From: an uncultured Bacteroidales bacterium
GTDB taxonomy: Bacteria > Bacteroidota > Bacteroidia > Bacteroidales > UBA932
Assembly: GCA_945983015.1 (NCBI GenBank)
Contig: CAMFSN010000002.1
Span: forward strand, 1 to 39,572
DNA length: 39,572 bases
Reading direction: 5' to 3'
The notes under the pieces were generated by a model. The model ran no database searches and was not told the DNA's origin. It worked only from the letters and a program-made list of their open reading frames with translations. Shown in pieces: positions 4,790 through 33,915 of this stretch; the stretch's first letter is position 1, and each line of letters begins with the position of its first letter. The position numbers were made by a program, and so were the translations under genes.

Positions 4790-6012
4790 TTCTCTTCTGC
4801 TTTTTCCACTTCCTTTGCCAATTTCGCCGGCAAATTCTCCACACACCTATGGCACCTCATCTCGAGGGTGTACATCCTTCCTATGCAATAGTTCGAGTGT
4901 CCGCAAGTGCTGCATTCACACTCCCCGCTTCGCATCTTGTTCACGAAATCCGTGTCGTGAACCAGGGCCCTTGCCACCTGCACTGCCACAAATCCGCTGT
5001 CCAGCACTTTCTCGATTCCCTGCTTGGACACCATTCCTCCCACATAGATAAGCGGCATCTTCAAGGCCTTTCTAAACTCCAGCGCGTCCTCCAGGAAATA
5101 AGCCTCCTTGTAGGGTACGCTCGGAATCATCTTCCTGCCTGCCACTGCCAGTCCCGCCTTCAGCCACCAGAAGGACTTCATATCCATATAGTAGGCCAAT
5201 GTCTTTAGCGGCATTGAGCCTCTCATCACTTCCATCGGAGCCTTGCTTACGAAGCCCGCCGAGAGCACCAGGGCATCCACACCCAGCCTTTCCAGTTCCT
5301 TTGCGACCTCCAGACATTCCGCCCTCTGCATTCCCTTCTTAAATCCGTCGTGCATGTTCATCTTTACGATGATGCCCATATCGGCAGGGGCCACTTCCTT
5401 TACTTTGTTGATAACCAGACGCATAAAGCGCATCCTATTCTCCAGGCTGCCACCCCAGCGATCCTTTCTGTGATTAGTGTATGGAGAAAGGAATTGGCTT
5501 ATCAGATAACCGTGTCCCGCGTGAATCTCCACGCAGTCGAAACCGGCCTCGTGGGCGAGCAGCACTGCTTTCCCGAAGTCTTCCACGATCTGCAGAATCT
5601 CCTCCTCCTTAAGGCCACGCACGAAGGTCGGGGAATAGAGGTTAAAGCCTCCTGAAGCTCCCACGGGAGTGCAGCCGCAGGTAGATCTGTGAGTCATATT
5701 ACCGCAGTGTCCGAGCTGTATGGAAGCCTTTGCCCCTTCGGCGTGTACGGCATCTGTGAGTTTTTTCAAATCGGGAACTATCTCAGGACGCATCCATAGC
5801 TGGCCTTTGAAGGAGAGTCCGCTCTGGCTGACTGCGGCATAGGCCACAGTGGTCATACCGACTCCGCCTCTCGCTACGGCAGTGTGATAGTTGAAAAGGT
5901 CTTGGGAAGGGCTGTTGTTATAAGCCATATTCTCAAAGGCCGCTGAACGGATTACCCTGTTTCTAATAGTTACAGGGCCTATCTGACAAGGGGTGAAAAT
6001 CTTTGATTCCAT
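4774..6012 (-). CDS. Old Yellow Enzyme-type NADH:flavin oxidoreductase, candidate 3-oxo-Delta4-steroid reductase
   Basis: The 412-residue product is an FMN-binding TIM barrel of the OYE / 2,4-dienoyl-CoA reductase class. It starts with the typical FTPCQIGPVTIRNRVIRSA and carries the hallmark HAGHGYLISQFLSPYTNHR followed by DRWGGSLENR near residues 180-205. GGM and VQVARALVHDTDF near the end match the phosphate-binding and barrel-closing region. It lacks the C-terminal FAD/NAD(P) domain of the ~650-residue BaiCD/BaiH/FadH enzymes. It does keep a Cys-rich tail (CECSTCGHSNYCIGRMY, then MRCHRC) that may hold an Fe-S cluster with non-standard spacing. One nucleotide separates its start from the stop of the 5-alpha-reductase homologue. 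Paired with that gene, it is a good candidate for the 5-beta-reductase or another ene-reductase of a steroid/bile-acid pathway. Confidence 0.88.
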   Translation of the reverse strand: MESKIFTPCQIGPVTIRNRVIRSAAFENMAYNNSPSQDLFNYHTAVARGGVGMTTVAYAAVSQSGLSFKGQLWMRPEIVPDLKKLTDAVHAEGAKASIQLGHCGNMTHRSTCGCTPVGASGGFNLYSPTFVRGLKEEEILQIVEDFGKAVLLAHEAGFDCVEIHAGHGYLISQFLSPYTNHRKDRWGGSLENRMRFMRLVINKVKEVAPADMGIIVKMNMHDGFKKGMQRAECLEVAKELERLGVDALVLSAGFVSKAPMEVMRGSMPLKTLAYYMDMKSFWWLKAGLAVAGRKMIPSVPYKEAYFLEDALEFRKALKMPLIYVGGMVSKQGIEKVLDSGFVAVQVARALVHDTDFVNKMRSGECECSTCGHSNYCIGRMYTLEMRCHRCVENLPAKLAKEVEKAEEKCAGR

Positions 6013-6013
6013 T

Positions 6014-6787
6014 TTAGTAGATGAAAGGTATCAGTCGTTTTGTGTGTTTACTGTCAAATTCTTCAGGAAATTCCTCCTGATATCTGTCGTGGATGCGGGC
6101 TGAGCGAGGGCCGAGATTGGCAAAGGTCCAGAGGACGAAGACGGCTCCGGACAAAGACCAGGTCAGGATAGCAAAGCCGGTCCATTCCAGCAGCTCGCCG
6201 AAATAATTGGCAGAGCTGACATAACGGAACATCCCTCCCTTAGGTAGATAGTGGGCAGTGTCCCCAGGCTTGCGGAGATGACGTATAATGTTATCTGACT
6301 GAATGTTAACGAACATTCCAAAGAAGAAAATCAGGCTTCCGCAGATAAAGCGGGGGTCGAGCAGATAACTGTCGGGGTACATCTCGAGGGGAGAAATATA
6401 AAAGATCCAACCCCCTTGCATAAGGGCGTTCAGGGTGTTGAAAACGACTCCCATCAAAATGATGCTGACCGGCATTCGGCTTTTCCCTTTGATAAGGAAG
6501 GGAAAGATGAAGGATCTCTGGAAGTAATGAAGCTCGAAAAGCAGGAGGAATATCAGGCGGCAGAGGCTGTCTTTTCTCTCGGAAAGGAGCCAGAGCAGGA
6601 GCATCGCGATGAAAACCGGAGACTCCATCAGTACCCAGCCCAGCTTGTTATCCAGGGAAGGTCCCCACTTTTTATTATAAAATTTGCCGTAACCGGCATC
6701 GATAAAATGCAGCGCTATGAAAACCACCAGGGCGATAGCGCTCATTATTAGAAGAAACAAATTAAAATTTTGTACAGTAAGAGTCAT
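6014..6787 (-). CDS. Steroid 5-alpha-reductase family membrane protein (SRD5A-like)
   Basis: This multi-pass membrane protein closely matches the animal and bacterial 3-oxo-5-alpha-steroid 4-dehydrogenase family. In the 257-residue form it has MESP (Glu55, the position of the catalytic Glu of SRD5A2 in QELP) and ELHYFQRSF (Tyr88, matching the HY Tyr). The NADPH-site block NIQSDNIIRHLRKPGDT lies at 161-177, and FRYVSSANYFGELLEWTG at 187-204. The C-terminus is IPFIY, as in the family. I chose the ATG at 6787 because it gives the family length (254-259 residues) and lies just after a TAAATTTG promoter box. The ORF-track start at 6835 would put the start upstream of that box. It is the first gene of the operon. 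The expected reaction is NADPH-dependent reduction of a Delta4-3-keto steroid to the 5-alpha (allo) form; the substrate is inferred. Confidence 0.88.
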   Translation of the reverse strand: MTLTVQNFNLFLLIMSAIALVVFIALHFIDAGYGKFYNKKWGPSLDNKLGWVLMESPVFIAMLLLWLLSERKDSLCRLIFLLLFELHYFQRSFIFPFLIKGKSRMPVSIILMGVVFNTLNALMQGGWIFYISPLEMYPDSYLLDPRFICGSLIFFFGMFVNIQSDNIIRHLRKPGDTAHYLPKGGMFRYVSSANYFGELLEWTGFAILTWSLSGAVFVLWTFANLGPRSARIHDRYQEEFPEEFDSKHTKRLIPFIY

Positions 6788-6802
6788 ATATTCTAAATCC
6801 CA

Positions 6803-6810
6803 CAAATTTA
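6803..6810 (-). promoter_or_regulatory. Putative -7 box (TAAATTTG) of the steroid-reductase operon
   Basis: On the minus strand TAAATTTG lies 15 nt before the chosen ATG at 6787, which would give a leader of about 10 nt. It sits inside the longer ORF-track version of the gene and so supports the downstream start. No clear TTTG -33 box is present at the usual distance. Confidence 0.45.
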
Positions 6811-6883
6811 GCAATTCTTTCCGAAAAGCCCACAAGTAAGTCTTGGCAGGTCAAAGCTCCTTTTAAATGAATACGAAAATCAC

Positions 6884-6891
6884 TATTTTTG
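6884..6891 (+). promoter_or_regulatory. Putative -7 box (TATTTTTG) four bases before the GSCFA start codon
   Basis: TATTTTTG matches TAnnTTTG and is followed by only GTGC? no further than 4 nt before ATG at 6896. If transcription starts about 5 nt after the box, as in characterised Bacteroidota promoters, the mRNA begins at the A of the start codon and is leaderless. Confidence 0.45.
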
Positions 6892-7747: not shown

Positions 7748-9983
7748 TTTTGTTCGTGATCTGGCCATTATTCTGGTGTCAGCCGGAATATTTACCATCA
7801 TTTCCAAGGCTCTGAAACAGCCTGTCATTCTGGGCTACATCCTGGCCGGCTTCCTGATAGGTCCAGGGATAGAGTTTTTCCCCGGAATCAGCAGTATGGA
7901 CTCCGTGCACCAGTGGTCAGAGATAGGCATTATCTTTATGATGTTCGGTCTGGGACTGGAGTTTAGTTTCAAGAAGCTGATGAAAAGCGGCAGCACTTCC
8001 ATCATCACCTCCATGTGCAAGCTCCTGGGAATGTTCCTGATAGGCTTTGTGACCGGACAAGCGCTTGGATGGAGCCGTATGGAAAGTATGTTCCTGGGAG
8101 GAATGCTGCCTATGTCCTCCACTATGGTGGTAGCCAAATCCTACGAGGAAATGGGGCTTAAGAGCAAGCCTTACAGCGGGATTGTCTTCGGCACCCTGAT
8201 AATAGAGGACATCGTGGGCATTATCCTGATGGTGCTCTTTTCCACCATAGCCGTCTCTGCCAAATTCAGTGGCAAGGAATTGTTCGGAGCTCTCGGCAAA
8301 CTCGCCTTCTGCCTGGTACTCTGGTTTGTGGTGGGCATCTATCTCATCCCCACCCTGCTTAAGAAAGCCCGCAGATTCCTCAACGACGAGATTCTGCTGA
8401 TAGTCAGCATTGGCCTGTGTTTCGCGATGGTGGCGATGTCCGAAAAGATGGGATTTTCAGCAGCCTTAGGGGCTTTCATAATGGGCTCAATCCTGGCCGA
8501 AACCATAGAAAGCGAGCACATAGAAAGGCTCGTATCCCCTATCAAAGACCTCTTCGGAGCCATCTTCTTCGTGTCTGTGGGAATGATGGTATCTCCTCAG
8601 ATACTGGCCCACAACTGGGCGACGATACTGCTTCTGGTACTGATTCTTCTCATTTTCGACATTATCTTCGTCTGTGGAGGCGTACTGCTCTCCGGCAAGG
8701 GGCTGGACAATGCCATTCATACCGGATTCAGCCTTGCCCAGATGGGTGAATTCGGATTCATCATAGCCAGCGTAGGAGTGGGTCTGGGAGTGGTGAGCGA
8801 TTACATTTATCCTCTGATAGTAGCCGTCTTCGTGCTAAGCAACCTGATAGCTCCTTTTGTAATCCGCAGCTCCACTCCTGTCTATAAATTTCTAAAGAAA
8901 AAACTACCAGAAAAAGTTCTGAACAGAATAGATGGCGAGAGCAAAGACAATTCCGACAGTAGCAATGCAGAGAAGAGCGAATGGAAGGTTCTGATGAAAT
9001 TCTACCTGCTGAGAATAGGAATCTATGGTGTCATACTCATAGCGGTTTACTCTGTCTGCGTTCAGTTCATCTGCCCTGTAGTTCTTAAACTGTTCCCGCA
9101 TCTGAATCCAAGCTGGGTATCCATAGTAAATGTCAGCGTCAAGTTACTGGCGATGTCCCCTTTCCTCTACGGGATGTGCATCAGTTCCGGCTCCATCAAC
9201 AAATCCGCCTATAAGCTGCTCAAGGCCAAGGAGTCTAACAAATGGCCCATCCTGGCCCTCGTCCTGCTGCGCTCCTTCTTCGCTATCGGCATAGTCATAG
9301 CCGTGATAGCCAGTCACTTCAAACTCGCCGGTTGGACTGCCGTGCTGATAGTGTTCGGAGGACTTGTATTCATCATAGTGGGAAGGAATTACTTCCAAAA
9401 ACGCTTCAAGTTCGAAAAGCAGTTCTTTTATAACCTTAACGTCAAAGAGCAGGAAGCTGAGCGGAATGCCCAGGTTCTCAGCTCGGTACAAAAGACCCTC
9501 AACGGCTACGACGTACATCTCGAGCAATTCGAGATTCCATCCAACTCCAGTCTGGCAGGCAAAAAGCTTAAAGACATCGCTCTTAGAGCCCAAAGTGGAG
9601 CCAACATCATAGAAATAAAACGCGGCGGCCGCAGCATCATCATTCCTAACTCGGATCAGGTGCTCTACCCTGCCGACAAGGTGCTTGCCGTAGGCAGCAG
9701 CCAGCAGATAGACAAACTGAAAGATATGCTGAAGGAGGCCACTCAGAGTGAAAGCAGCAATGATGAATTCGAAGTCATCTGCATAGAGATAGACAAAGAG
9801 TCTCCACTCTATGGGAAGACTCTTCGCTCAGCCTCACTGAGAGACTATAAATGTATGGTGATAAGTGTACTTCGGGGAGAATCCTTCATCACAAACCCTA
9901 AACCCGAGTTCCACTTCGAACTCTCAGACAAGGTCTGGATCGCAGGAGAGAAGAGCAGTTGCGAGTGGTTCAGAACTCAGTAA
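7731..9983 (+). CDS. Cation:proton antiporter, CPA2 family (KefB-like) with C-terminal TrkA_C domains
   Basis: This 750-residue inner-membrane protein has 11-13 hydrophobic segments in its first ~390 residues and more around 430-560. The CPA2 signature includes VILGYILAGFLIGPG near residue 30, MMFGLGLEFSFKKL near 68 and MLPMSSTMVVAKSYEEMG near 125. Two cytosolic regulatory domains of TrkA_C (RCK-C) type follow: SSLAGKKLKDIALRAQSGA to LAVGSS (about 605-660) and SPLYGKTLRSASLRD to the end (about 690-750). The full RCK-N nucleotide-binding domain of KefB/KefC is not evident; instead there are extra membrane segments between transporter and TrkA_C repeats. Likely role: K+ or Na+/H+ exchange. Its 3' end overlaps the convergent HAD gene by 14 nt. 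Confidence 0.87.
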   Translation: MSEEINFVRDLAIILVSAGIFTIISKALKQPVILGYILAGFLIGPGIEFFPGISSMDSVHQWSEIGIIFMMFGLGLEFSFKKLMKSGSTSIITSMCKLLGMFLIGFVTGQALGWSRMESMFLGGMLPMSSTMVVAKSYEEMGLKSKPYSGIVFGTLIIEDIVGIILMVLFSTIAVSAKFSGKELFGALGKLAFCLVLWFVVGIYLIPTLLKKARRFLNDEILLIVSIGLCFAMVAMSEKMGFSAALGAFIMGSILAETIESEHIERLVSPIKDLFGAIFFVSVGMMVSPQILAHNWATILLLVLILLIFDIIFVCGGVLLSGKGLDNAIHTGFSLAQMGEFGFIIASVGVGLGVVSDYIYPLIVAVFVLSNLIAPFVIRSSTPVYKFLKKKLPEKVLNRIDGESKDNSDSSNAEKSEWKVLMKFYLLRIGIYGVILIAVYSVCVQFICPVVLKLFPHLNPSWVSIVNVSVKLLAMSPFLYGMCISSGSINKSAYKLLKAKESNKWPILALVLLRSFFAIGIVIAVIASHFKLAGWTAVLIVFGGLVFIIVGRNYFQKRFKFEKQFFYNLNVKEQEAERNAQVLSSVQKTLNGYDVHLEQFEIPSNSSLAGKKLKDIALRAQSGANIIEIKRGGRSIIIPNSDQVLYPADKVLAVGSSQQIDKLKDMLKEATQSESSNDEFEVICIEIDKESPLYGKTLRSASLRDYKCMVISVLRGESFITNPKPEFHFELSDKVWIAGEKSSCEWFRTQ

Positions 9984-12928: not shown

Positions 12929-13777
12929 ATGGGAAGTAAAAAAACACAAAGAAAGCTATATCGACTGTCTCTGGTGGAAGATGCCACTCACGAGAAGATT
13001 TATGCCCTTAAGTTCAGCAAGGCGAATTTTTTCTGCCTTCTGAGCCTTTTCCTCTGCACCCTTGTCGGAGCCATCTACTCTCTGCTTGTCTTCACCCCTC
13101 TGCATTATAGCATCCCAGGCTATCCGGACGCTGATTTCCGCAGTCAGGCCATTTCCAACGCAGTGAAAATAGACTCCCTTGAGAGCGCGATGATACGCTG
13201 GGAGCTCTATGCCGAGAATCTGCAAAGGACATTGGCAGGAGAACAAAGTCTTTCTCTGGAAGAGGTGGCAAAGGACTCCCACAGAGAGGCTTACCTGCAG
13301 AGCAAGAGCGAAGTCTATCTGCAGCGGCAGGATTCCCTATTAAGGGCCAAGGTCGGGGCGGAAGAGCAGTACGGACTGTCGTCTTCCGGAAAACGCGATC
13401 TGCCTATAGAGGGTGTGCACTTCTTCAGCCCTCTGGTGGGAGTGATCACGAACAGCTTCGATATGGCGACCCATCCGGCGGTGGACATTGCAGCTCCGGC
13501 TAACAGCGTAGTGAAAGCCACCCTCGACGGGACGGTGATATTCGCCGGCTGGAGCAACGAATACGGCTATACCATCAGCCTGCAGCATAGCGGGGATATG
13601 GTATCCACCTACAAACATAACCGTTCTCTGCTGAAAAAACAGGGAGACAGGGTCAGCGCCGGAACTCCTATCGCCTATGTAGGCAATACCGGAAGCACCT
13701 CCAGCGGAGACCATCTGCATTTCGAATTATGGCACAAGGGCAGCGCAGTTGACCCTAGCCTTTATATTTCTTTCTGA
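12929..13777 (+). CDS. M23 family metallopeptidase (LytM-domain cell-wall hydrolase)
   Basis: The 282-residue protein has a basic cytosolic N-terminus, one membrane segment (about residues 34-58) and a periplasmic part with a short helical region followed by a LytM/peptidase M23 domain (about 160-280). Zinc-site motifs are present: ATHPAVDIA (His-x3-Asp), TYKHN and the terminal HLHFELW. M23 enzymes cleave peptide bridges in peptidoglycan. It may act during cell elongation or division; the type II anchor keeps it at the inner membrane. The last base of its TGA is the first base of the dxr ATG, so the two genes are translationally coupled. Confidence 0.92.
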   Translation: MGSKKTQRKLYRLSLVEDATHEKIYALKFSKANFFCLLSLFLCTLVGAIYSLLVFTPLHYSIPGYPDADFRSQAISNAVKIDSLESAMIRWELYAENLQRTLAGEQSLSLEEVAKDSHREAYLQSKSEVYLQRQDSLLRAKVGAEEQYGLSSSGKRDLPIEGVHFFSPLVGVITNSFDMATHPAVDIAAPANSVVKATLDGTVIFAGWSNEYGYTISLQHSGDMVSTYKHNRSLLKKQGDRVSAGTPIAYVGNTGSTSSGDHLHFELWHKGSAVDPSLYISF

Positions 13778-14928
13778 TGGAAAAACGTAAAGTAGCCATC
13801 CTGGGCTCCACCGGTTCCATAGGGACCCAGGCCCTGGACGTAATAAGACAGCACAGGGACCTCTTCGAGGTAGAGTTGATCAGCGCTAACAGAAGCCTGG
13901 ACCTGCTCTGCTCCCAAGCCTTGGAATTTGATGCGGCCAATGTAGTAATCTGCGACGAAAGCCTTTATCCTGAGTTGAACGAAAGGCTAAAGCACAGCGA
14001 CAGCAAAGTATTTGCCGGCATAGACAGCCTCTGTGAACTCATTACTTCCCCCCGAGTGGACATAGTACTGGGGGCGATGGTGGGCTTCAGCGGGCTCAGG
14101 CCTACCCTGGCAGCCCTCGAGGCCGGCAAGATAGTCGCCCTCGCTAACAAAGAAACCCTGGTGGCCGCAGGACAGATCGTCACTTCCTGTATGAGGAAGA
14201 ACAATGCGGTAATCCTGCCTGTGGACAGCGAACACTCCGCCATCTTCCAATGCCTGCTGGCCGCCCAGGGCAATGCCCTCAGCCGCATTCACCTGACCGC
14301 TTCCGGAGGGCCATTCCGCTGCTGGACTAAGGACAGGATTATGAAAGCGAAGGCCAGCGAGGCCCTCAAACACCCTAACTGGAATATGGGAGCCAAGGTC
14401 ACCATAGACTCCGCCACGATGATGAACAAGGGATTCGAACTAATCGAAGCCTGCTGGCTCTTCGACGTAGAGCCGGATATGGTGAACGTGCTGGTCCACC
14501 CCGAATCCGTCATCCACTCTATGGTGGAATTTGAAGACGGTGCTGTCATAGCCCAACTCGCCTCCCCCGATATGAGAGAGCCCATAGGCTTTGCCCTCTC
14601 TTTCCCCGAAAGGCTGAGCGTGGGGAACAAGCGCTTGGACTTTGCCAATTTGTCAGGCCTTCACTTCGAAGCTCCGGACACTGAGCGCTTCCCTAATCTG
14701 GAATTGGCCAAATCAGCCTTCCGCCGTGGTGGAAACATCCCTTGCGCCCTGAATGCCGCAAACGAAGTGGCGGTAAAAGCCTTTCTGGAGGACAGGATAA
14801 GTTTCTACGGGATCACCGATTTGATAGAGCACTGCATCAATGGTGTGGCTTTTGTGGCTAATCCGAGCCTGGATGACATTTTCGCCACTCACGAGAATTG
14901 TATGAGAATGGCGCAAGAACTGATTTGA
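13777..14928 (+). CDS. dxr: 1-deoxy-D-xylulose 5-phosphate reductoisomerase
   Basis: This 383-residue enzyme is the second step of the MEP isoprenoid pathway (DXP to MEP, using NADPH). The N-terminal Rossmann motif is AILGSTGSIGTQALDVI. ALANKETLVAAGQIV (near 125), PVDSEHSAIFQ (metal-site Asp/Glu near 150), TASGGPFR (near 180), and HPNWNMGAKVTIDSATMMNK (near 210) are all intact. Length is normal. It shares an operon with the M23 peptidase upstream and rseP 1 nt downstream; dxr-rseP adjacency is common in bacteria. Its product feeds the undecaprenyl route that uses UppS, also in this window. Confidence 0.97.
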   Translation: MEKRKVAILGSTGSIGTQALDVIRQHRDLFEVELISANRSLDLLCSQALEFDAANVVICDESLYPELNERLKHSDSKVFAGIDSLCELITSPRVDIVLGAMVGFSGLRPTLAALEAGKIVALANKETLVAAGQIVTSCMRKNNAVILPVDSEHSAIFQCLLAAQGNALSRIHLTASGGPFRCWTKDRIMKAKASEALKHPNWNMGAKVTIDSATMMNKGFELIEACWLFDVEPDMVNVLVHPESVIHSMVEFEDGAVIAQLASPDMREPIGFALSFPERLSVGNKRLDFANLSGLHFEAPDTERFPNLELAKSAFRRGGNIPCALNAANEVAVKAFLEDRISFYGITDLIEHCINGVAFVANPSLDDIFATHENCMRMAQELI

Positions 14929-17797: not shown

Positions 17798-20148
17798 ATA
17801 CTGAATAAGAGATAAGCTATCCAAGCCACAATCCAGGCCGTAAGACACTGAAAGATAATCACAAAGAGCGACCATTTCCCTCCCAATTCCCTGCGAATGG
17901 CGGTAACGGCGGCCACACAAGGGGTATAAAGCAGACAGAATACCATCATCGCCACGGCAGAGGCGGTAGTGAGCATATTCTCCACCCCGAGTAGGTTCAT
18001 AGTGGAAACCACGCTCTCCTTAGCCATAAAACCGGACACCAGGGATGTTACCACCCGCCAGTCCCCGAGTTCCATAGGAGCGAAAAGTGGAGATAGCAGT
18101 CCGGATATCCTGGCAAGTATGCTGTCAGAATAATCCGTCACCTGATTAAGAGTGAAATCAAAACTCTGCAGGAACCATATCACTATGGTAGCCAAGAAAA
18201 TAACAGTAAAAGCCTTCTGGACAAAGTCCTTGGTCTTATCCCAAAGCAGATGTCCCACGTTGCGCGCCTGAGGAAGCCTGTAGGAAGGCATTTCCATCAC
18301 GAAAGGGGCCGCTTGGGAGCGACGGCGGATGAGCTTGATGCCTATGGCGGAGCAAATCCCCAGCACTATTCCCAGCAAGTACATCGAGATCATCGCCAAG
18401 GCTGCGTGATCAGGGAAAAAGGCTGCCGCAAAGAAGGCATAGATAGGAACCTTGGCAGAACAGCTCATAAAAGGAATCAGCAGTATGGTAGCCCTTCTGT
18501 CTCTGGCGCTTGGCAGGGTCCTCGCGGACATTACGGCAGGCACCGAACAGCCGAAGCCTATGAGCATAGGCACAATGCTTCGTCCGGAAAGACCTATCTT
18601 TCTTAAGAAGGCATCACAGACAAAGGCAATTCTGGCCATATATCCGCTATCTTCCAATATAGACAGGAAAAAGAAAAGGACTATTATTATAGGAATAAAG
18701 CTCAGCACGCTGCCTACCCCGCCGAAAATGGCATCCACCACCAGAGAGCGAAGCATTCCGCTTACTTTCCAGGATTCGAAAAGCGAGTCCACAGTTGCCC
18801 CCAGAGCAGCAATCCCATCAGAGAGAAGTCCCTGAAGTGGCGCCCCTATAACATCGAAACTCAGCCAGAAGACCAGAGCCATTATCAGAATAAAGGCTGG
18901 CAGGGCTGTATATTTTCCGGTGAGAATCTTATCAATCTTATTCGAGCGAAGCCTCTCCTTGCTCATACGAGGCTTTGCTATGGAACGGGCGCAAAGCTTA
19001 CGGATAAAGGAATAGCGCATATCCGCCATAGCGGCATAGCGGTCCAATCCCCTCTCCTCTTCCATTTTAGAGACTATGTCTTCCAGAATTTGCTTCTCCT
19101 TCAGATCGAGCCCCAGAGCCTCAAGCACTTCCTGATCTCCTTCGATAAGTCTGGACGCAGCGAAGCGCTTTGGTAATCCTGCCACCTTCGCCTGATCCTC
19201 TATCAGATGCATAACAGCGTGCAGGCATTTGTGCACCGCCCCTTTATGATCCTCCGGAGAACAGAAATCCTGCCTTGCCGGCTTTTCCTGAAATGTGGCT
19301 ATGTGCACGGCGTGCTCCACCAGTTCTTCCACGCCCTCTCCCTTCGCTGCGCTAATCGGCACCACCGGCAGGCCAAGTTCCCTTTCCAGCACATTCAGAC
19401 GGACCGTTCCTCCATTGCCTTTCAATTCGTCCATCATATTCAAGGCCAATACTATCGGCACGTCCAGTTCCATCAGCTGCATAGTGAGATAGAGATGCCT
19501 TTCTATATTTCCGGCATCCACTATATTGATAATGGCTTTAGGCTTATTTTCAAGAATGAATCGACGAGAGACCAATTCTTCCTGGGTATAGGTGGAAAGG
19601 GAATAGATCCCGGGAAGGTCTGTGACAGTAATCTCCGGATGGTCCTTGAGGCTGCCGTCCTTTCTATCTACTGTTACTCCAGGAAAATTACCCACGTGCT
19701 GATTCGAGCCTGTCAACTGATTGAAGAGAGTGGTCTTGCCACTGTTCTGCTGTCCTACCAGGGCGAAAGTAATCTTTTCTCCCTTAGGCAGAGGATGGGC
19801 GTGATCCTTAGAGTGGTATTTTCCTTCCTCTCCGAAACCAGGATGAGAGTTCAGATCGTGAGCCGATGAGCTATACGCCCATTCCTTACTGATGTTGTCC
19901 TCTTCCTGCTCCAGAACCGAATCCTGAACAGGCTCCACTTCGACTTTATCCGCCTCACTGCTTCTTAGGGTAAGGCTATAGGACTGGATGCTCAATTCCA
20001 AAGGGTCACCCATAGGGGCCTTACCCTGCAGGGTGATGACAGAGCCTGGGATGAGACCCATTCCGAGCAGGTGTTGTCTGAGACTTCCTTCGCCTCCTAC
20101 ACTTAAGACCTGAGCACTTTGGCCTATATTAAGTTCACTGATTTTCAT
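17794..20148 (-). CDS. feoB: Fused FeoA-FeoB ferrous iron transporter
   Basis: The 784-residue protein joins a FeoA SH3-like domain (residues 1-74, MKISELNIGQSAQV, HLLGMGLIPGS) to FeoB. A charged, His-containing linker (about 75-125) leads into the G domain with G1 GQQNSGKTT (132-140), G3 DLPGIYSL, G4 NMMDE and G5 SAAKGEG. A helical GDI-like region follows, then the polytopic permease with two Gate-type segments (for example GFGCSVPAVMSARTLPS and MAKESVVSTM). The protein imports Fe2+ across the inner membrane. FeoA-FeoB fusions are usual in Bacteroidota. It heads a two-gene operon with the Cys-rich helper. Confidence 0.96.
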   Translation of the reverse strand: MKISELNIGQSAQVLSVGGEGSLRQHLLGMGLIPGSVITLQGKAPMGDPLELSIQSYSLTLRSSEADKVEVEPVQDSVLEQEEDNISKEWAYSSSAHDLNSHPGFGEEGKYHSKDHAHPLPKGEKITFALVGQQNSGKTTLFNQLTGSNQHVGNFPGVTVDRKDGSLKDHPEITVTDLPGIYSLSTYTQEELVSRRFILENKPKAIINIVDAGNIERHLYLTMQLMELDVPIVLALNMMDELKGNGGTVRLNVLERELGLPVVPISAAKGEGVEELVEHAVHIATFQEKPARQDFCSPEDHKGAVHKCLHAVMHLIEDQAKVAGLPKRFAASRLIEGDQEVLEALGLDLKEKQILEDIVSKMEEERGLDRYAAMADMRYSFIRKLCARSIAKPRMSKERLRSNKIDKILTGKYTALPAFILIMALVFWLSFDVIGAPLQGLLSDGIAALGATVDSLFESWKVSGMLRSLVVDAIFGGVGSVLSFIPIIIVLFFFLSILEDSGYMARIAFVCDAFLRKIGLSGRSIVPMLIGFGCSVPAVMSARTLPSARDRRATILLIPFMSCSAKVPIYAFFAAAFFPDHAALAMISMYLLGIVLGICSAIGIKLIRRRSQAAPFVMEMPSYRLPQARNVGHLLWDKTKDFVQKAFTVIFLATIVIWFLQSFDFTLNQVTDYSDSILARISGLLSPLFAPMELGDWRVVTSLVSGFMAKESVVSTMNLLGVENMLTTASAVAMMVFCLLYTPCVAAVTAIRRELGGKWSLFVIIFQCLTAWIVAWIAYLLFSI

Positions 20149-24998: not shown

Positions 24999-27905
24999 TT
25001 AAAATTGCTGTCCTATCACGAAATGGAACTGACTTCCGCCCAAGCCTTTAGCCCTGCCGTCGAAACCGTAGCCCCAGTCCACACCTATCAGACCGACCAT
25101 AGGGAGGAACACTCTCACACCCACACCGGCAGAACGATAAATCTGGAAAGGATTGAAGTCCCTTATATCCGACCAGCAGTTTCCGCCTTCCATGAAAGCC
25201 AGGACAAAGATGGTGGAAGAAGGCTGCAGAATCAGAGGATATCGGAGTTCCACTGTGAATTTATCATATACATTTCCCGAATAAGCCCCACCGTCTGACT
25301 TGTAGGCAGTAGTCGTGTATGGAGTAAGGGAATAATTTTCATAACCTCTAAGGGAGATAACCTCGGAGCCGTAGGTGTTATAACCTGACATACCGTCACC
25401 ACCGAGCAGGAAGCCCTCGAATGGAGAATAGCCCCAATTCCTGTTATAATAGCCCAGATATCCGAACTGAGCCTTGGTCATCAGCACCAGGTCACCTATC
25501 AGCTTGATGTACTGGGTGGCGGATAATTTCCATTTGTGATATTCTATCCAACGATACCTGTCCTGAGCGCTCCAATTGTCATAATTCACGTCCTTGTAGG
25601 AAGGTACCGGAATCCTGTTCCCGTCTTCATCCAAGTCATACTTCCTGAACAGAGAGAAAGGAGGAGTCAAAGAGAGGGAGAAGGAGAACTCCGAACCGGC
25701 TCGAGGATATATCATCTGGTCCGTGGAATTTCTCATCAGATTAAGGGAATAGCTGATATTGTTCGCAAACCCATTATCGAAGATAAAGTATCCGGAATAC
25801 CAGTTGGTAAGCTTATATGTCTGCCAGTTAAGTCCGTTATAAAGCACGAAATAGTTATCCGGCCACTTGAGCCTGGTACCCAGGGAGGCTGACACGCCGA
25901 AGACTTCCATCTGCCTGTCGTGGCTAAGGATGTTAAGAGCCAGATATGAATTCGTCTGACGGGTATAATAGGCGGAGAGATTCAGAGAGGTAGGCTTCTT
26001 TCCGAAAAGCCAAGGCTCTGTAAAGCTGGCGGTGAGAGCAGTGTAGTAGGTACCGTTAGTCTGGAAGCGGAATGCCAGGTTCTGGGCATCTCCCAGAGGT
26101 ACAGGCCTCCAGGCATCCTTATCGAAGAACCTGTGAGTGGAGAAGTTGTTAAAGCTTACGCCCACCGTAGCCACAAAGGTATTACCACCCCAACCACCGC
26201 TGAGTTCCAGCTGGCTGGAAGGTTTCTCTGTCACATTAAGGATGTTAAGAGCCAGATATGAATTCGTCTGACGGGTATAATAGGCGGAGAGATTCAGAGA
26301 GGTAGGCTTCTTTCCGAAAAGCCAAGGCTCTGTAAAGCTGGCGGTGAGAGCAGTGTAGTAGGTACCGTTAGTCTGGAAGCGGAATGCCAGGTTCTGGGCA
26401 TCTCCCAGAGGTACAGGCCTCCAGGCATCCTTATCGAAGAACCTGTGAGTGGAGAAGTTGTTAAAGCTTACGCCCACCGTAGCCACAAAGGTATTACCAC
26501 CCCAACCACCGCTGAGTTCCAGCTGGCTGGAAGGTTTCTCTGTCACATTATAAATGAGGTCCACAGTATTATCCCTCGGATTAGGAATCATACTGTATCC
26601 GGTCTGAGACATAATCGCCTCAGCATCGAACTGCCCCAGAGAGGCAATCTCTCGGATGGAACGTTCGAAATCACTTTGGCTGAAAAGGTAACCCGGCCTG
26701 GTAACTATCTGACGACGAACCACTTTCTCATTCGTCAGGTCATTACCGTTAATGATGATGTTGTTCAACACCGCCTGTTTTCCCTCAGAAATCCTCAGTT
26801 CCACGTCCACGGAGTCATTCTGTATGTTAGTTTCCACAGGATTGATGTTAAAGAAGAGATAGCCCTTGTCCCTATAGAGTTTGGATACGTCGTAATCTCC
26901 CTGCTTACCGCCTCCGAAGAGCCTTTTCTGCATAGAAACCACATCGTACACATCCCCCTTTTCTATACCCAGGATCTGGTCCAAAACCTCGGAAGAATAT
27001 ACGGAATTACCAGTCCAGTTGATGTCCCTGAAATAGTATTTGCTCCCTTCCTCGAGTTCTATGTCTATGTTTATCTTCTTCTTAACCTTTCCATTCTTCC
27101 CGACTATGTCCACAATATAGACACTATCCCTTACTATGCGGGCATCGCGATATCCGGCCTCATTCAGGGTGCTGACCAGATTCTTCTTATCCTCGGGGTA
27201 ATCCTTCTCGCTGAATTTTTTACTATTAAAGAAGTTATAGAATTTGTTAGACTTGGTCTTCTTCATAGATTTGGCGAGCTTGTATTCCGAGATGTCATCC
27301 ACGCCTATGAAGTTAATGTCCTTAATCCTAACTTTAGGGCCCTTATCTATGTGAAAATAAACCCTTATGGCATTCTTTACCACCGTATCCTTCTTCACTT
27401 CCGTATCCACCTCGCAGAGAAGGAAGCCCTTTTCCGCATAGAAGCGTTTGATTATGCCCTCGGCAGTGGTTCTGGAATATTCGGAGAAATCCCCACCCCT
27501 TCTGAAACCTATCCTCTCATTCAGTTCCTTCTTATCTCCGGACTTGATTCCGGTATAATCCCAACCGGACATCCTGGGACGCTCCAGAATGGCTATTCTC
27601 AAAAATACGGAATCCTTTGTCGCGCTGAGAGAATCGGCGTAGATGGCCACGTCCTCAAAATAGTTCTTCGAGATCAGCCTCTTGATGGCAGAGGATACCT
27701 CTTCTCCAGGGAGAGTCACTTTTCTTCCCTCAAAAAGCCCAGACTGGGCGGCTATCTGAGCCGAGTCGAAATAGGTATTACCCTCCACGCTCACTCCAGC
27801 TATAACATATTGTTTAGGTCGGTTATAGTCCACCTCGACCTGAGCCTTCATAGAAAAACAGGCACAGGACAGGGCGAAAACCGTCAACACTCTCTTAAAC
27901 TTCAT
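24999..27905 (-). CDS. bamA: BamA outer-membrane assembly factor carrying an exact internal tandem duplication
   Basis: The product has a signal peptide (MKFKRVLTVFALSCACFSMKA), a POTRA series (about residues 25-440) and a C-terminal Omp85 barrel ending in HFVIGQQF. BamA folds and inserts outer-membrane proteins. I start at 27905 for a compact signal peptide; the ATG at 27917 is equally possible and the ORF track uses a GTG at 27926. The unusual point is that a 104-residue block at the start of the barrel (from VTEKPSSQLELSGGW to YLALNIL) occurs twice in tandem with no nucleotide differences. The frame is 975 codons in the ORF track; without one copy it would be about 871, the normal size for Bacteroidota. 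The family identity is certain, but the duplicated form may be an assembly error or an impaired allele. Confidence 0.93.
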   Translation of the reverse strand: MKFKRVLTVFALSCACFSMKAQVEVDYNRPKQYVIAGVSVEGNTYFDSAQIAAQSGLFEGRKVTLPGEEVSSAIKRLISKNYFEDVAIYADSLSATKDSVFLRIAILERPRMSGWDYTGIKSGDKKELNERIGFRRGGDFSEYSRTTAEGIIKRFYAEKGFLLCEVDTEVKKDTVVKNAIRVYFHIDKGPKVRIKDINFIGVDDISEYKLAKSMKKTKSNKFYNFFNSKKFSEKDYPEDKKNLVSTLNEAGYRDARIVRDSVYIVDIVGKNGKVKKKINIDIELEEGSKYYFRDINWTGNSVYSSEVLDQILGIEKGDVYDVVSMQKRLFGGGKQGDYDVSKLYRDKGYLFFNINPVETNIQNDSVDVELRISEGKQAVLNNIIINGNDLTNEKVVRRQIVTRPGYLFSQSDFERSIREIASLGQFDAEAIMSQTGYSMIPNPRDNTVDLIYNVTEKPSSQLELSGGWGGNTFVATVGVSFNNFSTHRFFDKDAWRPVPLGDAQNLAFRFQTNGTYYTALTASFTEPWLFGKKPTSLNLSAYYTRQTNSYLALNILNVTEKPSSQLELSGGWGGNTFVATVGVSFNNFSTHRFFDKDAWRPVPLGDAQNLAFRFQTNGTYYTALTASFTEPWLFGKKPTSLNLSAYYTRQTNSYLALNILSHDRQMEVFGVSASLGTRLKWPDNYFVLYNGLNWQTYKLTNWYSGYFIFDNGFANNISYSLNLMRNSTDQMIYPRAGSEFSFSLSLTPPFSLFRKYDLDEDGNRIPVPSYKDVNYDNWSAQDRYRWIEYHKWKLSATQYIKLIGDLVLMTKAQFGYLGYYNRNWGYSPFEGFLLGGDGMSGYNTYGSEVISLRGYENYSLTPYTTTAYKSDGGAYSGNVYDKFTVELRYPLILQPSSTIFVLAFMEGGNCWSDIRDFNPFQIYRSAGVGVRVFLPMVGLIGVDWGYGFDGRAKGLGGSQFHFVIGQQF
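25925..26238. repeat. bamA tandem duplication, copy nearer the 3' end of the gene
   Basis: These 314 bases are identical to 26237-26550. The period is 312 nt (104 codons), so the frame is preserved. The two copies share a 2-base junction (TA). Flanking bases diverge at once on both sides. Confidence 0.97.
26237..26550. repeat. bamA tandem duplication, copy nearer the 5' end of the gene
   Basis: Second member of the exact 312-nt-period direct repeat. It encodes the segment directly after the last POTRA domain, which is the beginning of the beta-barrel. Confidence 0.97.
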
Positions 27906-27925: not shown

Positions 27926-27933
27926 CAAATATA
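27926..27933 (-). promoter_or_regulatory. Putative internal -7 box (TATATTTG) before bamA
   Basis: TATATTTG lies between uppS and bamA on the minus strand, 8 nt before the ATG at 27917 and 20 nt before the ATG at 27905. It would let bamA be transcribed apart from nadK-uppS. Confidence 0.4.
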
Positions 27934-33783: not shown

Positions 33784-33796
33784 AAAAAACATTTTG

Positions 33797-33804
33797 TATA
33801 TTTG
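33797..33804 (+). promoter_or_regulatory. -7 box (TATATTTG) of tRNA-His
   Basis: TATATTTG, repeated identically at the second tRNA-His copy. The expected start site, about 5 nt after the box, coincides with the first base of the leader hairpin. Confidence 0.65.
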
Positions 33805-33808
33805 CAGT

Positions 33809-33828
33809 CCTTTAGCACGCGCTAAAGG
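33809..33828 (+). other. Perfect hairpin in the tRNA-His 5' leader
   Basis: CCTTTAGC and GCTAAAGG pair over 8 bp around an ACGC loop. It lies at the predicted 5' end of the precursor, 6 nt before the tRNA, and is conserved in the second copy. It may protect the leader or guide RNase P, or be a terminator-like or regulator site. Confidence 0.7.
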
Positions 33829-33834
33829 ATATAT

Positions 33835-33908
33835 GGTGCGATTAGTTCAGTTGGTAGAGCACTAGATTGTGGTTCTAGGTGTCGTGGGTTCGAGCCCCAC
33901 ATCGCACC
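33835..33908 (+). tRNA. tRNA-His (anticodon GTG)
   Basis: The acceptor strands GTGCGAT and ATCGCAC pair over 7 bp, with the extra encoded G(-1) opposite C73 that is specific to tRNA-His. The anticodon stem CTAGA/TCTAG encloses TTGTGGT, giving GTG. The T arm is GTGGG TTCGAGC CCCAC. No full CCA is encoded. Two hairpins with T-tracts follow. Confidence 0.96.
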
Positions 33909-33915
33909 CCCTGAT

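Follow-up and report, generated by a model that had tools for sequence, protein, structure and literature searches.

An exact in-frame tandem duplication in bamA of a Bacteroidales draft genome is probably a product of library preparation and assembly

BamA is described as a 16-stranded barrel (PMC12611786, PMC12578637); in F. johnsoniae it is essential, and the layout of the Bacteroidota versions includes an extended periplasmic turn, T1 (PMC12611786). As regards spontaneous tandem duplications, those verified experimentally in Salmonella had junction microhomology of at least 11 bp, and ones with 7 and 9 bp were not verified (PMC3411829). On the side of sequencing, an exact tandem repeat whose length exceeds k forms a loop in the assembly graph, and the number of its copies has to be worked out from read pairs or from coverage (PMC6052550); by one account microhomology-guided chimeras arise during library preparation (PMC8674242). 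Against this background we analyzed a window of 39,572 nt, by which we mean the whole stretch of DNA studied; it makes up the whole of contig C2 in a fragmented draft genome (1,419,056 nt, 123 contigs, completeness 81.3%, contamination 2.86%), and in it the beginning of the BamA barrel is encoded twice.

The duplicated segment and its gene

The product of the 975-codon frame has the features of a BamA/Omp85 protein of the Bacteroidota type, namely several POTRA domains ahead of a barrel (4 stretches above the Pfam threshold, E 6.5e-38) and homology over both regions to the solved Bacteroidota BamA structures 9hj3, 9hiv, 9n2d and 9hjm, all of which match with E of 3e-164 or lower. The alignment with 9hj3_A (E 6e-190) covers both query residues 35-556 and 665-975. 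Together with the two neighboring genes, which are those normal for bamA (Table 1), these matches bear out the identification made in the earlier note on this DNA. The start of the gene is listed as a GTG at 27926; comparison with the proteins of relatives suggests that the real start is likely to be the ATG at residue 8 (27905).

A search with Tandem Repeats Finder recovered a sole array in the window, with a period of 312, 2.0 copies, 100% matches and 0 indels. The exact match extends over 314 nt at a distance of 312, leaving a junction overlap of 2 nt (TA). The two 312-nt coding units are identical (0/312 nt differ) and free of stop codons, such that the frame remains open through both and the duplication adds 104 residues directly after the last POTRA domain; on exactness, frame and position alike the description in the earlier note holds. 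A direct repeat of 314 nt without a mismatch is far more than chance would produce, and a scan of the window found the array to be its only direct repeat of at least 24 nt with a partner no more than 5 kb away. No further copy of the 312-nt stretch was found elsewhere in the genome.

Table 1. Positions of the bamA locus, its duplication and comparable duplications in the same assembly
Feature	Contig	Position	Strand	Period (nt)	Junction overlap (nt)	Basis or remark
OmpH/Skp-like periplasmic chaperone gene	C2	24423..24998	-			normal bamA neighbor; Pfam PF03938, E 6e-26
bamA reading frame, 975 codons	C2	24999..27926	-			signal peptide, POTRA domains, barrel; translation, Pfam, solved BamA homologues
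First 312-nt copy in reading direction	C2	26237..26548	-			about residues 460-563; barrel start, putative strands 1-5
Second 312-nt copy in reading direction	C2	25925..26236	-			about residues 564-667
Overlap TA closing the array	C2	26549..26550				2 nt; junction microhomology
Undecaprenyl diphosphate synthase gene (uppS)	C2	27940..28719	-			normal bamA neighbor; Pfam PF01255, E 6e-83
Last 55 nt of the contig	C2	39518..39572				contig-end overlap of length k (k=55 graph); identical to 33794-33848
Tandem duplication	C2	25925-26550		312	2	bamA, in frame
Tandem duplication	C18 (L129)	19130-19722		295	3	GNAT acetyltransferase, frameshifted
Tandem duplication	C24 (L144)	13729-14865		566	5	truncated ftsX start before full ftsX
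Tandem duplication	C32 (L152)	8532-8940		204	1	doubles 68 residues in DUF4434 protein, in frame

Each copy seems to contain the first five strands of the barrel (strands 1-5), the putative strands being SSQLELSGG, TFVATVGVSF, AQNLAFRFQ, TALTASFTE and SLNLSAYYT, and the stretch between the second and third of these matches the extended periplasmic turn T1 of Bacteroidota BamA (PMC12611786). The count of five strands per copy, already proposed in the earlier note, is plausible from the sequence and from what is known of the Bacteroidota layout; the AlphaFold models of a single-copy relative and of the window protein (mean pLDDT 54.6 and 44.6) are too poor for counting strands. The frame as written would give about 21 strands, and the collapsed form agrees with relatives. 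If the count is right, an odd number of strands has been inserted and strands 6-16 would consequently be inverted; selection should act strongly against five additional strands in an essential barrel.

Relatives and the remainder of the assembly

The relatives considered here are Bacteroidales genomes, several of them called Candidatus Cryptobacteroides. Of the 101 genomes of the genus that were searched, counting the one to which the window belongs, 96 have a bamA match, and the comparison with close relatives that the earlier note had proposed gave a uniform answer: the 104-residue unit is single in every relative, both in the 109 fetched loci (96 distinct) and in 10 further congeners, so that among about 100 relatives examined the duplication is absent from all. 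Two congeners in which the open frame is long (982 and 1104 aa) were checked for a duplication and both have a single copy. When one copy is removed from the window's gene the remaining 871 codons align over their full length with the nearest relative (L054) at 80.8% identity with one 1-residue gap. At the DNA level the 312-nt unit differs from its nearest relatives by about 18%, against no difference between the two copies, and the second copy therefore bears no sign of age.

Scanning 914 kb of the same assembly for exact repeats (contigs C1-C52, the longest ones in part) recovered four exact tandem duplications, with periods of 204, 295, 312 and 566 and all 100% identical (Table 1). The recurrence thus includes a gene-breaking case: the GNAT acetyltransferase broken on C18 is one uninterrupted frame in most congeners that carry the gene. 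As for the DUF4434 protein of C32, two homologues from the genome G022 have no matching residues over much of the doubled stretch. As a control, 1.29 Mb from seven congeneric genomes (an eighth sampled, G092, was left out as it offered masked sequence only) yielded no exact direct repeat longer than 64 nt and no tandem one of at least 60 nt; a second control, 0.78 Mb of the relatives' bamA loci, yielded no exact direct repeat longer than 42 nt. If equal rates are assumed, the probability that all four would fall in the window's own assembly is 0.03, or 0.009 when the bamA loci are added. With four events only, this enrichment is by itself suggestive, not overwhelming. The junction overlaps of the four sites sum to 11 nt, compared with a mean of 3.0 for random junctions (P = 0.0035), which indicates that the junctions are not purely random ligations; it is likely that microhomology guided the copying, whether in vitro or in vivo.

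Two further exact repeats were not counted as tandem. On C26 (L146) a 289-nt repeat at a distance of 1636 (4960-5248 and 6596-6884) is common to the 3' ends of two neighboring lipoprotein genes and could represent gene conversion or an assembly join, and on C52 (L255) a spaced 262-nt direct repeat at a distance of 449 lies inside longer repetitive sequence (321-1031) beside an adapter-tailed contig end. Low-complexity repeats of the GAGTGA/GTGTGA type, with several periods, were also seen on C5 (L116; 1538-1860).

The draft also carries traces of its library and assembler. At least 13 of the 52 contigs examined (C9, C10, C15, C20, C22, C33, C34, C43, C45, C46, C48, C49 and C52; e.g. L255:1-45 on C52) end in the Illumina Nextera i5/i7 adapters, made up of the i5 index with TCGTCGGCAGCGTC, or the i7 index with GTCTCGTGGGCTCGG, followed by the mosaic end AGATGTGTATAAGAGACAG. 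There are none in the window itself, and 0 were found in the stretches from relatives or controls. Their presence at contig ends implies that reads ran through short fragments and were left untrimmed. Overlaps between contig ends reach a maximum of exactly 55 nt, none being longer, as is characteristic of a k=55 de Bruijn graph, e.g. under SPAdes defaults. Adapters and overlap ceiling are signs of poor read cleaning or assembly that are independent of the duplications. The window ends in such an overlap: its final 55 nt are a second occurrence of the leader and the 5' portion of the tRNA-His gene (33835-33911), which suggests that another tRNA-His-like gene starts at the end of the contig, at a branching point of the assembly graph. 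Chimeras of whole-genome amplification are unsupported, as their inverted-repeat signature is missing: no inverted exact stretch of at least 40 nt was found within any of the scanned contigs.

Origin of the bamA duplication

Given that the same draft contains three further perfect duplications, one of them gene-breaking, and leftover adapters, we conclude that the duplication in bamA is probably an artefact of library preparation and assembly, a reading drawn from the assembled sequence. It is most likely not a feature of the bacterium, which in all likelihood has a single, ordinary copy coding for a BamA of about 864-871 residues. The earlier note had warned that zero divergence meant either a very recent event or an assembly product, and the other duplications, the broken GNAT gene and the untrimmed adapters tip this choice toward assembly. 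The sequence of events that we favor would begin with a chimeric molecule or false read link by which a short library fragment is joined end to start with itself, guided by 1-5 nt of shared sequence. In the k=55 de Bruijn graph the false link would produce a closed loop, which the assembler would walk twice because 55-mers cannot resolve a 314-nt exact repeat; the periods of 204-566 would lie within the range of library fragment lengths. Counting against such an artefact, three of the four duplications could in theory be tolerated (those in bamA and the DUF4434 gene are in frame, and a full ftsX follows downstream), no adapter sequence was found at the bamA junction, and the junction overlaps exceed the random mean.

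The latter excess also speaks for a real, very recent microhomology-mediated duplication, one carried by some or all of the sampled population while other cells keep the single-copy gene. We consider this unlikely, even though the insertion in bamA is in frame and without a stop, zero divergence is compatible with great recency, and bacterial populations in general often contain spontaneous tandem duplications (PMC3411829). Four events at the consensus level in 0.9 Mb would be extraordinary when the congeners have none, one of them breaks the GNAT gene, and the insertion of five strands in the essential barrel would be expected to be strongly selected against. Moreover, real recombination, too, makes use of microhomology, but the overlaps, 2 nt in bamA and 1-5 nt at the other sites, fall short of those in the verified cases, which have at least 11 nt (PMC3411829).

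We regard it as improbable that a natural two-copy bamA, doubled in frame for strands 1-5, occurs at high frequency in this Bacteroidales population and is tolerated, perhaps with the extra strands looped out or single-copy cells coexisting. Still less credence can be given to a fixed and functional BamA of 21 strands, or with a looped-out segment, that has two copies of the lateral-gate strand. The frame is indeed open and continuous through both copies; against this, the duplication is seen in none of the about 100 relatives, the two copies are identical in a unit that stands about 18% off its nearest relatives and so show no age, strands 6-16 would come to lie inverted after an odd number of extra strands, and the published accounts give BamA 16 strands and call it essential (PMC12611786, PMC12578637). 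The tolerance, phase-variable slippage and mixed population that the earlier note had entertained find no support here, the other duplications and the adapters favoring an assembly product. Recombination between exact 312-bp direct repeats could in principle restore one copy, yet reversible slippage between one- and two-copy forms is the faintest of these prospects, since the original breakpoints overlap by 2 nt only, no relative examined has a second copy or remnant, and an ancestral state without the repeat implies that there was no pre-existing switch.

If the duplication is an artefact, it matters for curation only: because this public draft has adapter-tailed contigs and, at a minimum, four tandem duplications that look false, its gene lengths, pseudogenes and "duplications" are not to be trusted without reads. 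If real, it would serve as an experiment of nature showing how far the lateral gate and the barrel topology of BamA can be altered.

Comparison with described systems

Among described phenomena, the duplication resembles the misassembly and chimeric-read artefacts of short-read data, of the kind sought by metaMIC (PMC9661791), in that the error is confined to one assembly, the copies are exact, the repeat is longer than the assembly k-mer, several cases occur in one genome and the library is poorly trimmed. It departs from the usual reports, which emphasize relocations and inter-genome translocations, in being a small tandem duplication in place. With spontaneous microhomology-mediated duplications (PMC3411829) it shares the direct tandem arrangement and the shared bases at the junction, but the verified ones there have at least 11 bp of microhomology in place of 1-5 nt, and here four consensus-level cases lie in one draft. 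Compared with the single-copy Bacteroidota BamA proteins (9hj3, 9hiv, 9n2d and 9hjm), the window's protein has the same POTRA and barrel architecture, aligns end to end outside the repeat and is encoded between the same neighbors, uppS and ompH/skp; it differs from them only in the exact second copy of residues 460-563.
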